In this document: positions 46,093 to 49,150 of the stretch, in pieces
Numbering within the stretch: the stretch's first letter is position 1
Layout: each line of letters starts with the position of its first letter
DNA from: Pseudomonas fulva NBRC 16637 = DSM 17717
GTDB taxonomy: Bacteria > Pseudomonadota > Gammaproteobacteria > Pseudomonadales > Pseudomonadaceae
Reading direction: 5' to 3'
Assembly (NCBI RefSeq): GCF_000730565.1
Contig: NZ_BBIQ01000001.1
Span: 124,001-188,000, forward strand
Length of the DNA stretch: 64,000 nucleotides
The notes under the pieces: generated by a model
What the model was told of the DNA's origin: nothing
The model's database searches: none
Seen by the model: the letters and a program-made list of their open reading frames with translations, nothing else
Position numbers and translations under genes: made by a program

Positions 46093-46893
46093 TCAGTTCT
46101 GGACGCTTTGCACCGAGCCGCCATCGACCCGCAGGTTGCTGCCATTGATGAACGAAGCCCGCTCCGAAACCAGCAGCGCGATCGCGGCCGCGACCTCTTC
46201 TGGCTTGCCTCGGCGCTTCTGTACGATGCCGGGTCGTTCCTCTTCCAGGAAGCTTTCGATGGCCTCCTCGAAGCTCACGCCTTTCTCTTCGGCGCGCTGC
46301 TTCATCATGCCATCGGTCATGTTGGTTTCAATAAATGCCGGCGATACCGTGTTGCACAGCACCCCATGCGCCGCTTCCTTGTAGGACAGGTTCTTGATGA
46401 ACGCGGCCAGTGCGGCCTTGGCGACGTTGTACACCGCCTCTTCCCAGTAAGGCTGCACGGCATTCTCGGAGGTGATGCACACCAACCGCCCCCAGCCCCG
46501 TTTGCGCATCGCCGGAACGGTGGCCCGCGCCACGCGCACGGCGGTGAAGAAGTCGGTATCCCAGGCTTCCTGGTAATCCTCGTCCTTCATTTCCAGCGGG
46601 TCGCCTTTGGCGCCTGTTACCCCCGTGGTATGCACCACGATATCCACCTGGCCATAACGCTCTTCGGCTTGCCGGACCAAGTTATCCACCTCGTCCTGAC
46701 TGGTCATGTCCGCCGCGATGAGCAAGGGCGCGCCACCCAGCGCCTTGACGGCATCTTCGAGCTTGTCCTGGTCGATGTCAGTCAACACCAGCTTCACACC
46801 TTCCTCGGCGAGGAGGTGGGCAGTGGCCAGGCCAATGCCGCCAGCTGCACCGCTGATCAGGGCCACACGGTTTTTCAAACCTAAATCCATCAA
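46093..46893 (-). CDS. Short-chain dehydrogenase/reductase
   Basis: A 266-aa classical SDR oxidoreductase. The cofactor motif GAAGGIG is at residues 15-21, with an acidic Asp at 39 favouring NAD(H). The catalytic set is Ser142, Tyr155 and Lys159 (YNVAK). Its start codon overlaps the stop of the upstream alpha/beta hydrolase by four bases, so the two are translationally coupled. The substrate is unknown. Confidence 0.92.
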   Translation of the reverse strand: MMDLGLKNRVALISGAAGGIGLATAHLLAEEGVKLVLTDIDQDKLEDAVKALGGAPLLIAADMTSQDEVDNLVRQAEERYGQVDIVVHTTGVTGAKGDPLEMKDEDYQEAWDTDFFTAVRVARATVPAMRKRGWGRLVCITSENAVQPYWEEAVYNVAKAALAAFIKNLSYKEAAHGVLCNTVSPAFIETNMTDGMMKQRAEEKGVSFEEAIESFLEEERPGIVQKRRGKPEEVAAAIALLVSERASFINGSNLRVDGGSVQSVQN

Positions 46894-47666
46894 CGATCTC
46901 CCAGGGAAAGTTCAGCAGCGATTGGTCTTGCGAAATCAAGCATCGGCTCGGCCAATGCCTGAGGGGTCTGGTAAGGCATCAGGTGGCCCGCACCGGGCAG
47001 GGTAAGCAAGGTGCCGTTGGGGAAGTGCGACAAGGTGGTGCGCCGCTGCTCTTGGGCGTCGGGCACCTGCTGGTCATCGGCGCCGCAGATCAGCAGGGCC
47101 GGATAGGGCAGCAGGCCGATGCGATCGCTCCAGTCCTCGCGACTGCCGTGATCGACCCAGGCACGCCAGGCGTCAAGGTTGACGGCCTGGGCGTCGGCGA
47201 TGGCGACTTCGCGCAGCGCATCGGGCAGCCTGTGGTAGCTCGAGTCGTCGACGAAGGCTTCGGCTTGCTCCCGGCTGGCGGTGTAGGCCCGTTGCTGGTC
47301 GCGGTCTTCATCGCTCATCGGCTGGGGGCCGGGAGGCGATGGGGCCACCAGGATCAGGCCCCGAAGGTAGTCCGGGCGACGAGCGGCCAGCACGACCGCG
47401 ACTTTGCCGGTCATCGAGTGGCCAACGAGGATGCAGTGCTTGAGCCCAAGCTCACGGATGCTCGCATCGACCTGATCGGCCATTTCTTCAACGGTATAGC
47501 CGGTGACGGCATTGGCATCGCCGTACCCGGGTGTGTTCAGGGCGATGCAGGCATGCGCTCGGTCTAGGTAAGGGACCGTGGCGGACCATGTTCGGTGCGA
47601 ACCACCCAAAAAATGCATCAACACGAAGGTAACGGGACCGCGGCCTTGCTGGCTGTGTGGGAGCAT
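46890..47666 (-). CDS. Alpha/beta fold hydrolase
   Basis: A 258-aa alpha/beta hydrolase. The nucleophile Ser84 is in VGHSMTGK, an HFLGGSHRTW oxyanion region lies near residue 18, and the C-terminal His in GAGHLMPYQTP completes the triad. It overlaps the SDR gene by four bases. A perfect 24-bp inverted repeat lies 16 bp upstream of the start. The start at 47666 gives a short N-terminus; a slightly earlier non-ATG start is possible. Confidence 0.85.
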   Translation of the reverse strand: MLPHSQQGRGPVTFVLMHFLGGSHRTWSATVPYLDRAHACIALNTPGYGDANAVTGYTVEEMADQVDASIRELGLKHCILVGHSMTGKVAVVLAARRPDYLRGLILVAPSPPGPQPMSDEDRDQQRAYTASREQAEAFVDDSSYHRLPDALREVAIADAQAVNLDAWRAWVDHGSREDWSDRIGLLPYPALLICGADDQQVPDAQEQRRTTLSHFPNGTLLTLPGAGHLMPYQTPQALAEPMLDFARPIAAELSLGDR

Positions 47667-47706: not shown

Positions 47707-47780
47707 GCGGCTGGGGAAGTTCATTCAGGCATTGAGGGCGCTGGACAGCCTTGTTTCTGCCGGGGGGCGGGCACCAGGGT

Positions 47781-47840
47781 TCGCCCCTCAACCACTCCCG
47801 GGACGGTACTGCAGGGCCTCAGCCAGGTGCGTCCGGTCAA
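47781..47840. repeat. Left direct repeat of the island (copy of yifB 3' end, attL-like)
   Basis: Sixty bases matching 49091-49150 at 57 positions, with a perfect 45-bp core (47787-47831). On the minus strand it encodes the last yifB codons, so it is a duplicated gene end at the far side of the inserted toxin-antitoxin segment. Confidence 0.85.
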
Positions 47841-47845
47841 GATGG

Positions 47846-48421
47846 TTAGATCAGCAGCTCGTAGTTCGAGAGGTGCTTGACGGTCTCTGGGAGCCGCTGC
47901 TTGAGGAGGATGTCCAGCAGCTCGCGGGGTGAGTAAACCGGATTGTTAAGGGCTGCGCGCTGCTTCTGGACGGCCTTGAGCACAGCTGCCTGATCAAGGT
48001 CCCAGATGTCGGAGAGGAATACATCGGGATGCAACGCCTCGATCTCAAAACGTTTCAGAATCTCGGCCGGAAAATCTTTGAGGTTGTACGTGACAATCAC
48101 CGAGGCGCCACATTTGATCGCTGCTGCCAAGACGTGTCTATCGTCTTCGTCTGGAAGGTCAAGCCCCTGCACAAGTGGCTCGTAGTCATTTACCAGAGAG
48201 TCAGGAATCGCCCGATTCATGAGTCCGACTGTGCGATAAAGTTGTGTTTCTGACACGTCGGGACGGTTTCTTAACACGTTTCGTGTCCATTCATCGTGGA
48301 TTTGCTCGGACCAGCGCGCGCGATACGCGCCAGTCAGAGCCAGATGCATCAATAGGTCACGCAATGGTGCTGGATAAAGCACGCAGGCGTCGTAGATAAC
48401 TGTAAAAGGTGAGTGCCTCAT
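47846..48421 (-). CDS. PIN domain toxin (VapC50-like)
   Basis: A 191-aa PIN-domain ribonuclease, the toxin of a type II toxin-antitoxin pair. Acidic residues expected in the active site: Asp11 (VIYDACVLYP), Glu44 (IHDEW), Asp94 (DEDDRHVLAAAIK) and Asp116 (NLKDFP). It is longer than a typical VapC (about 130 aa), with a C-terminal extension, as in the VapC50 branch. Its start overlaps the antitoxin stop by four bases. RNA target unknown. Confidence 0.85.
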   Translation of the reverse strand: MRHSPFTVIYDACVLYPAPLRDLLMHLALTGAYRARWSEQIHDEWTRNVLRNRPDVSETQLYRTVGLMNRAIPDSLVNDYEPLVQGLDLPDEDDRHVLAAAIKCGASVIVTYNLKDFPAEILKRFEIEALHPDVFLSDIWDLDQAAVLKAVQKQRAALNNPVYSPRELLDILLKQRLPETVKHLSNYELLI

Positions 48422-48885
48422 TGATAGCCCATATTAAGTTCTTGGGCTTGTGCAGCCAGTTCATCCATGGCGGCCTGGCTTGCTTTATCACGATCGGCCT
48501 TGTAGGCCATTAGGTCAGTAAATTTTACACGGCGGTGGCTGCCGGTTTTGGTGTGTGGGATTAGCCCCTCATCCAGCAGCTTGACCAAGTGAGGACGCGA
48601 GACGTTGAGCATATCGGCGCCCTCCTGGGTGGTCAGTTCCGCATGGATAGGCACCACCTTTACGGTGTTGCCCAAGGCCAGCTCGTTGAGTATGTCGCCA
48701 AGCAATCTGAGCGCGAACGTTGGCAGTTCAACAGTCTGCCGTTGCTGGGCTTCATCTACCAACTCAATGCGCTGAGTATCCAACTTGGTTGAGACGAACG
48801 CGGCAATCTGGCGGCTTGACTCAATAGCCGCGGTGATCGCTTTTTCATCTGGAAGGATGGCTTGAGCGAGATCGGCGGTAGTCAT
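48418..48885 (-). CDS. Excisionase-like HTH antitoxin (VapB50-like)
   Basis: A 155-aa antitoxin. The C-terminal region has an excisionase/MerR-type helix-turn-helix (LTTQEGADMLNVSRPHLVKLL, then GSHRRVKFTDLMAYKADRD). The N-terminal half (PDEKAITAAIESSRQIAAFV) is helical. The start at 48885 has GGAGA upstream; the frame continues to 48981 through the promoter and is rejected there. It should neutralise the PIN toxin and repress its own promoter through the tandem operators upstream. It is the first gene of the operon, translationally coupled to the toxin. Confidence 0.82.
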   Translation of the reverse strand: MTTADLAQAILPDEKAITAAIESSRQIAAFVSTKLDTQRIELVDEAQQRQTVELPTFALRLLGDILNELALGNTVKVVPIHAELTTQEGADMLNVSRPHLVKLLDEGLIPHTKTGSHRRVKFTDLMAYKADRDKASQAAMDELAAQAQELNMGYQ

Positions 48886-48940: not shown

Positions 48941-48987
48941 TTTATATTCGAAACAAACGAAATGCACAATATTCGAAACAAACGAAA
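48941..48987 (-). promoter_or_regulatory. Toxin-antitoxin promoter with two perfect 19-bp operator repeats
   Basis: On the minus strand: -35 TTGTGC (48964-48969), a 17-bp spacer and -10 TATAAA (48941-48946). ATATTCGAAACAAACGAAA occurs at 48944-48962 and 48969-48987, 25 bp apart. Each copy holds the inverted TTCG-N7-CGAA. Copy 1 fills the spacer and touches the -10; copy 2 abuts the -35. This is a layout for autorepression. Confidence 0.7.
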
Positions 48988-49090
48988 CGGCGAGTAGTGC
49001 TTGGGGAGGAGCGTCTACCCACCTGGAGGTTGATGCGATGTACAGGAGGTGAGGTGCTCCGGCCTGGTCAAGTGCTTCCAGCTACCGCGT

Positions 49091-49150
49091 TCGCCTCTCA
49101 ACCACTCCCGGGACGGTACTGCAGGGCCTCAGCCAGGTGCGCCCGGCCAA
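49091..49150. repeat. Right direct repeat of the island (yifB 3' end, attR-like)
   Basis: The partner of 47781-47840. It contains the yifB stop codon (49098-49100) and the last 16-17 codons, differing from the left copy at three positions. Confidence 0.85.

Follow-up and report, generated by a model that had tools for sequence, protein, structure and literature searches.

Gene content and flanks of the cassette

The window, a stretch of 64,000 nucleotides of Pseudomonas fulva DNA, carries on its minus strand a two-gene cassette bracketed by two copies of the 3' end of comM. The genes and flanks are as follows.

48418..48885, minus strand: predicted antitoxin gene, 155 amino acids, HTH_17/excisionase type, with a winged helix-turn-helix (HTH) at residues 84-132
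47846..48421, minus strand: predicted PIN_3 toxin gene, 191 amino acids, its start overlapping the antitoxin stop
49089..49150, strand not assigned: 3' end of comM (yifB), the upstream flank of the cassette, placed by open reading frame (ORF) and repeat comparison
47779..47840, strand not assigned: 62-bp copy of the comM 3' end, the downstream flank, 95% identical to 49089-49150 and lying 5 bp past the toxin stop

The two ORFs are adjacent, co-oriented, and overlapping, as in type II toxin-antitoxin systems, and both products exceed Pfam cut-offs: the antitoxin scored 46.1 bits against HTH_17 (cut-off, 27), and the toxin scored 42.4 bits against PIN_3 (cut-off, 27). The antitoxin also matched the TIGR01764 excisionase model (52 bits; cut-off, 28.8); PHROGs gave it a borderline excisionase match, and PADLOC gave only a weak mad1 match, to its HTH. 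It consists of an N-terminal alpha-beta-beta-alpha part, the winged HTH, and a C-terminal tail ending near MGY, and its nearest named matches are in the genus Pseudomonas. Against NF046100, the RSP_2648 PIN family, the toxin remained below the curated cut-off (153.9 versus 170 bits); its residues D11, E44, D91, D94, and D116 are conserved in 50 to 52 of the 53 ORFs found downstream of homologous antitoxin genes. The operon is thus predicted to encode a type II-like toxin-antitoxin pair, composed of an excisionase-type HTH antitoxin and a PIN_3 toxin.

The two 62-bp comM copies are 1310 bp apart, and the cassette sits between them, leaving the end of comM intact, an arrangement that would fit insertion of DNA at the 3' end of the gene. 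No third copy of the 23-bp core of this duplication was found in the window. The neighboring hydrolase gene (46890-47666) has close orthologues (72 to 77%) in three of the 12 relatives searched, far from comM in genomes G003 and G023 and, in G001, on a contig separate from it, with weak matches only in the other 9; the position of these orthologues away from comM suggests a junction of acquired DNA beside it. Second, partial comM-like matches were seen in two relatives, at G008:C1:1773374-1773751 and G022:C32:2597-3062, one of them about 9 kb from comM, and are perhaps insertions at the same gene. At L006/L055, the homologous cassette has a truncated PIN gene and lies between two copies of a small gene of about 75 amino acids, with a spacing of about 1.76 kb.

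A directional array overlapping a candidate promoter

Upstream from the antitoxin gene, the 19-mer ATATTCGAAACAAACGAAA occurs in two perfect copies (48944-48962 and 48969-48987) whose starts are 25 bp apart. A sequence-only reading of this DNA had described exactly these two repeats, and they are borne out to the base; 100 shuffles gave no match at up to 3 mismatches (mean, 0.00), and a search of the 4.77-Mb genome, also at up to 3 mismatches, found none beyond the two copies in the window. The same reading had proposed a search for the 19-mer upstream from homologous operons, and the exact sequence proved rare there. Homologous upstream regions were collected from a search of 398 genomes of the genus, of which 85 gave a match, from a scan of named genomes (30 loci), and from 40 further stretches, the last covering part of the genus matches still without a locus. 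Among the 96 usable regions, the exact 19-mer occurred in just 4, counting the window itself and two loci (L011 and L041) with identical upstream DNA, and it was doubled only in the window, which rules it out as the repeating unit.

What recurs instead is a shorter motif. Of the 96 regions, 95 were long enough for comparison, and 74 were left after those more than 85% identical had been dropped. TTTCG strings were present on the coding strand of nearly all homologous upstream regions, L100 being an exception, and in the 74 nonredundant regions they numbered 216 on that strand versus 14 on the other. Same-strand offsets between them clustered at 9 (68 cases), 16 (54), 25 (48), and 34 (11); in 200 shuffles, offset 9 had a mean count of 0.09 and a maximum of 2. 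Alignment of 57 rows on the proximal TTTCG-N4-TTTCG pair, omitting 17 of the 74 (13 Vibrio-type rows plus L100, L089, L067, and L101), gave the column tally TTTCGNNTR, TTGCGAT, TTTCGNNTR, TTTCGNNTA, in which each column from -16 to +17 holds 0.6 to 2.0 bits and those elsewhere do not exceed 0.60 bits (0.2 to 0.5 in columns 18-20 and similar ones); columns inside the pair owe part of their conservation to the anchoring. The T and A at columns +16 and +17, where the last unit ends and the -10 hexamer starts, are outside the anchor and were present in all 57 rows. The pair counts in the 74 regions and the pattern counts in the distant and test sets described below are unanchored.

By this comparison, the element that repeats is TTTCGNNTR, 9 bp long and arranged head-to-tail along the coding strand, rather than the 19-mer or the inverted arms within it. 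The array and the promoter element that it enters are laid out as follows.

48979..48987, minus strand: candidate operator unit u1, TTTCGTTTG, part of a 19-mer copy and delimited as a 9-bp unit by homologue comparison
48970..48978, minus strand: candidate operator unit u2, TTTCGAATA, 9 bp after u1, corresponding to columns -16 to -8 of the 57-row tally
48963..48969, minus strand: u3, degenerate unit TTGTGCA, also the candidate -35 hexamer; step to u4, 7 bp
48954..48962, minus strand: candidate operator unit u4, TTTCGTTTG, inside the -35/-10 spacer
48945..48953, minus strand: candidate operator unit u5, TTTCGAATA, its final TA being the start of the -10
48941..48946, minus strand: candidate -10 hexamer TATAAA, read from the sequence and the column tally

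Read along the minus strand, u1 and u2 are followed by TTGTGC and an A (48969-48963), then u4, u5, and TAAA: five 9-bp-type units in the same direction, with steps of 9-9-7-9. The 25-bp spacing of the 19-mers follows from the unit steps (9 + 9 + 7). Among 60 Pseudomonas-type upstream regions, 39 have steps of 9-7-9 and 10 have the 9-9-7-9 arrangement of the window. The two-unit pattern TTTCGNNTRTTKYGNNT matched nowhere in the genome except at this array (3 overlapping matches; a reversed control gave 4), which rules out a wider regulon for this pattern.

The candidate promoter consists of TTGTGC (48969-48964), a 17-bp spacer, and TATAAA (48946-48941). The hexamers and spacer are present as the sequence-only reading had them, interleaved with the repeats, but its wording that one copy abuts the -35 and the other fills the spacer is inexact: one copy shares 1 bp with the -35, and the other shares 3 bp with the -10. 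The spacer is made up of one base, the whole of u4, and seven bases of u5, and this composition may account for the step of 7 bp, rather than 9 bp, from the -35 unit to u4. A consensus promoter scan with a threshold of 9 of 12 matches found no promoter and left the candidate unscored, because TTGTGC agrees with TTGACA at only 3 of 6 positions. The counterpart of u3 is mostly TTGCGA(T) in Pseudomonas relatives and is TTGACT in several Vibrio and Shewanella relatives, and u3 thus reads as an array unit merged with a -35.

The inverted arms TTCG-N7-CGAA, which the sequence-only reading had placed in each 19-mer, are indeed there in both copies, but they are not the best-conserved feature: an inverted pair is found in 52 of the 74 nonredundant regions and a direct pair in 71. 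A symmetric operator, in which an antitoxin dimer would sit on each 19-mer through these arms and two dimers would be 25 bp apart, could draw on the 52 regions with arms, on an inverted form of the unit at a Dietzia locus (below), and on the palindromic operators described in a review of Pseudomonas aeruginosa toxin-antitoxin systems (PMC9966142). We nevertheless consider it improbable. Of the 55 inverted sites, all but 2 are simply direct pairs with AA after them, and 32 of the 85 direct pairs have something else next, so that the arms exist mainly because AA follows a second direct unit; this rules out the inverted repeat as the unit. Moreover, TTTCG-N(0-15)-CGAAA, a fully inverted pair, was found in 0 of 60 Pseudomonas-type and 0 of 25 distant upstream regions (the 13 Vibrio-type regions lying outside this comparison).

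The array keeps company with the gene pair. DNA similarity to the closest relatives begins at the array (about -104) and extends no farther than the toxin stop (about +1037); where the toxin is truncated or identity is lower, the shared stretch is shorter. With the array kept alongside the pair and the similarity bounded in this way, the earlier view of the site as an operator woven into a toxin-antitoxin promoter is supported, but its choice of repeating element, whether 19-mer or inverted repeat, does not.

The array in distant hosts and its candidate readers

Among 398 genomes of the phylum, a profile search matched 27, and 25 loci were used after omission of the window's own copy and L135. 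Across these 25, mean self-match peaked at lag 9 (8.6 versus 3.7 in shuffles); individually, lag 9 was best at 9 loci and lag 18 at 4, and L148, L149, and L150 each show four 9-bp units in a row. The pattern TT[TGA]C[GA]-N4-[TA]T[TGA]C[GA], which was used on this set, is present at 18 of the 25 loci (0.50 expected) and missed at 7.

The pattern was then applied unchanged to 20 loci fetched later, from 19 of 313 plasmid records and 1 of 3 phage records, chosen for taxon spread before their upstream DNA was seen; annotated gene starts were taken, except that the match start served for L163, L164, and L166 (unannotated) and for L182. Within 150 nt upstream, 17 of the 20 test loci carry the pattern, versus 0.53 expected from shuffles. 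L164 has the same upstream DNA as L075 and was removed for a count independent of the earlier sets, which stands at 16 of 19, the other 19 test loci having no alignment of at least 60 nt to earlier upstream regions or to each other. Loci with the pattern belong to Pseudomonadota, Cyanobacteriota, Bacteroidota, Actinomycetota, and Deinococcota (among them a cyanobacterium, a Bacteroidota, an actinobacterium, and two Deinococcota) and to phage AcaML1. At 13 of the 17 annotated test loci, the antitoxin gene has a co-oriented PIN gene next to it; at the Meiothermus locus (L178), a PIN gene lies upstream, and the array fits within the 49-bp gap before the antitoxin gene. No such array was seen at the Pantoea test locus (L165). 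The Dietzia plasmid locus (L180) misses the pattern and has the unit as a perfect inverted repeat, TTGCACTTATAAGTGCAA, with no direct array, and the Rhizobium locus (L182) misses it with only a looser pair, TTGCGTTTATAGCGTTTG, farther upstream.

Two further observations concern individual loci. At L142, L157-L159, L170, and L179, the half-site TTKCA or TTACA replaces TTKCG (TTTCG) with the 9-bp period kept, and a comparison by eye of such half-site variants with the recognition helix revealed no evident matching change. The identity between L164 (Tistrella plasmid pTM3) and L075 (G004, a genome placed in the window's genus) extends over 150 nt and, linking an alphaproteobacterial plasmid with the window's genus, would reflect either recent transfer or contamination.

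In these comparisons, the array stays with the gene pair in different species, on plasmids, in a phage, and through five phyla. Since unrelated hosts have array and pair together, the simplest view is that the pair itself encodes the reader of the array, and because that reader must be available in all of these hosts, the antitoxin would be the obvious candidate. It might be supposed that a host protein, such as a nucleoid protein or a global regulator, reads the array in place of the antitoxin, since an AT-rich unit could attract general AT-binding proteins. Two observations argue against this: a similar unit accompanies antitoxin genes in five host phyla and a phage, and the two-unit pattern is absent from the rest of the P. 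fulva genome. We regard a host reader as very improbable. A role in excision deserves consideration on account of the TIGR01764 match, the annotation of the AcaML1 copy as an excisionase, and the comM duplication that flanks the cassette: the repeats would then serve as arm sites when a mobile element is excised, with the HTH protein acting as its recombination directionality factor. The repeats are, however, centered on the promoter and absent from the 62-bp flanks, no integrase was recognized by eye among the ORFs at 45.5-52.5 kb, and the antitoxin gene usually has the co-oriented PIN neighbor counted above for the test loci; such a role seems to us extremely improbable.

A proposed autoregulatory operator and its relation to known systems

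Conserved and running in one direction with a 9-bp period, the array overlaps both promoter hexamers. We infer that the antitoxin, alone or with the toxin, is the binder, that it binds cooperatively head-to-tail, and that binding represses. In the explanation that we favor, with a probability of roughly 0.73, the site is an autoregulatory operator on which antitoxin protomers line up head-to-tail and hide the promoter, a reading built from sequence comparison, a structural model, and analogy with the Streptomyces regulator BldC. The array of TTTCGNNTR units would be laid over the promoter such that one unit doubles as the -35 and another enters the -10; each unit would be bound by one winged-HTH protomer of the antitoxin, in the same orientation and touching its neighbor, like BldC; a filled array would hide the -35 and -10 from RNA polymerase; and loss of the antitoxin would free the promoter. 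Some points count against this model: 3 of the 20 test loci and 7 of the 25 distant loci miss the pattern, and the 7-bp step in Pseudomonas arrays breaks a strict 9-bp filament. The analogy with BldC has its own weak points, in that the fold matches are not unique, Arg30 of BldC is replaced by Lys102, and the antitoxin has extra domains.

Conditional cooperativity with the toxin is common in type II systems. In a variant of the favored explanation, the antitoxin would bind exclusively or chiefly in complex with the PIN toxin, the toxin bridging protomers, and the conserved C-terminal tail that follows the HTH could keep the toxin attached during contact of the HTH with DNA. A crude test found no downstream ORF of at least 150 amino acids at 21 of the 74 antitoxin loci, with locus ends or start choice perhaps behind some of them, and toxin decay with retention of the antitoxin may be common among the 74. 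Many of the 21 keep the array, so that the toxin may not be needed, and we consider this variant rather unlikely.

The predicted antitoxin model is of moderate confidence (pLDDT, 79.6; pTM, 0.47), with the winged HTH at about residues 84-133 and a long helix with a poorly ordered terminus at its end. Residues 82-131 superimpose on BldC (6amk_B) at 1.1 A over 50 residues (28% identity; Z, 7.2), the lowest root mean square deviation for the DNA-binding domain among the matches listed. Ranked by Z, an unrelated-looking chain, 6hn7_B, comes first (7.8; 2.9 A over 69 residues); BldC (7.5 and 7.2) and Pukovnik Xis (7.2) are tied, RdfS is also close, and classical MerR proteins, which bind palindromes, score about 1 Z lower. 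Foldseek with the model returned no E value below 0.001, hhalign against BldC was weak (probability, 31%), no relative in the PDB was found by sequence with the antitoxin or its profile, and the N-terminal domain model had no clear fold match (best Z, 5.0), a known fold still being possible for it. In the model, then, the DNA-binding domain is a MerR-like winged HTH of BldC-like fold, with BldC among its closest counterparts.

The published account of BldC describes one protomer per 9-bp direct repeat, bound head-to-tail, with a variable number of repeats, a site consensus of AATTXXXX(C), interface residues Glu16 and Gly44, and an Arg30 that reads a C-G pair (PMC5859096). The array described here likewise consists of 9-bp direct repeats of variable number, its sites being deduced from conservation, and the whiI opt repeat of BldC, CAATTCGGA, as given there, shares TTCG with the array unit, which has a conserved CG and a T in place of the consensus C of BldC. 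Glu16 and Gly44 align with E88 and G115 of the antitoxin, both invariant in 30 aligned antitoxins. The position of Arg30 is occupied by Lys102, invariant in 30 sequences, and by Arg in some distant relatives, e.g., L144, L147, and L149. BldC is a lone 68-residue developmental regulator of Streptomyces without an extra N-terminal domain or tail, whereas the antitoxin has about 80 residues before its winged HTH, a tail after it, and a toxin partner; with these extra domains and Lys at the place of Arg30, it departs from the BldC family, and we do not place it there. The array itself would work in the manner of a BldC site.

The Xis/RdfS recombination directionality factors also share the HTH_17 domain and form head-to-tail oligomers on DNA (PMC11963761); they differ in acting in excision, whereas the antitoxin belongs to a two-gene operon with a PIN toxin, with no integrase recognized in the stretch read. 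The same two domains occur in TA 11, an Excise/PIN_3 pair of Acidithiobacillus ferrooxidans that a report on that organism lists as a predicted type II pair, predicted only, the pairs tested there belonging to another element, ICEAfe1; a term search of that report found no mention of a direct repeat or palindrome (PMC4226512). A term search of an antitoxin review (PMC4803016) found MerR, direct repeats, and excisionase unmentioned, which is weak evidence because "inverted repeat" is absent there too. In the open-access literature, we found no account of such an operator for excisionase-type/PIN pairs. Control of a toxin-antitoxin-type cassette through several short repeats has a parallel in the omega-epsilon-zeta system. 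There, the omega repressor is a ribbon-helix-helix protein separate from the antitoxin. As given by titles cited in PMC3874152, its repeats are heptads, both direct and inverted, with units of 7 bp.

The gene pair is thus of a familiar type, and the operator type apparently is undescribed for toxin-antitoxin pairs. A little-studied antitoxin family, often labeled "excisionase" or "helix-turn-helix protein," would gain a defined operator and a testable binding mode, together with a sequence signature for finding and naming such pairs. A broader proposal, which we put forward tentatively, is that this family controls itself over at least five phyla by a filament of antitoxin growing head-to-tail along a row of 9-bp units, its length being set by the toxin. 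If so, evolution could tune promoter sensitivity through the number of units (2 to 5), and autoregulation would be unlike that by the palindrome-bound dimers of textbook systems. If binding is indeed head-to-tail, unit number would also offer a simple experimental variable for cooperativity, and DNA coating of the BldC kind would extend from development and excision to toxin-antitoxin autoregulation.
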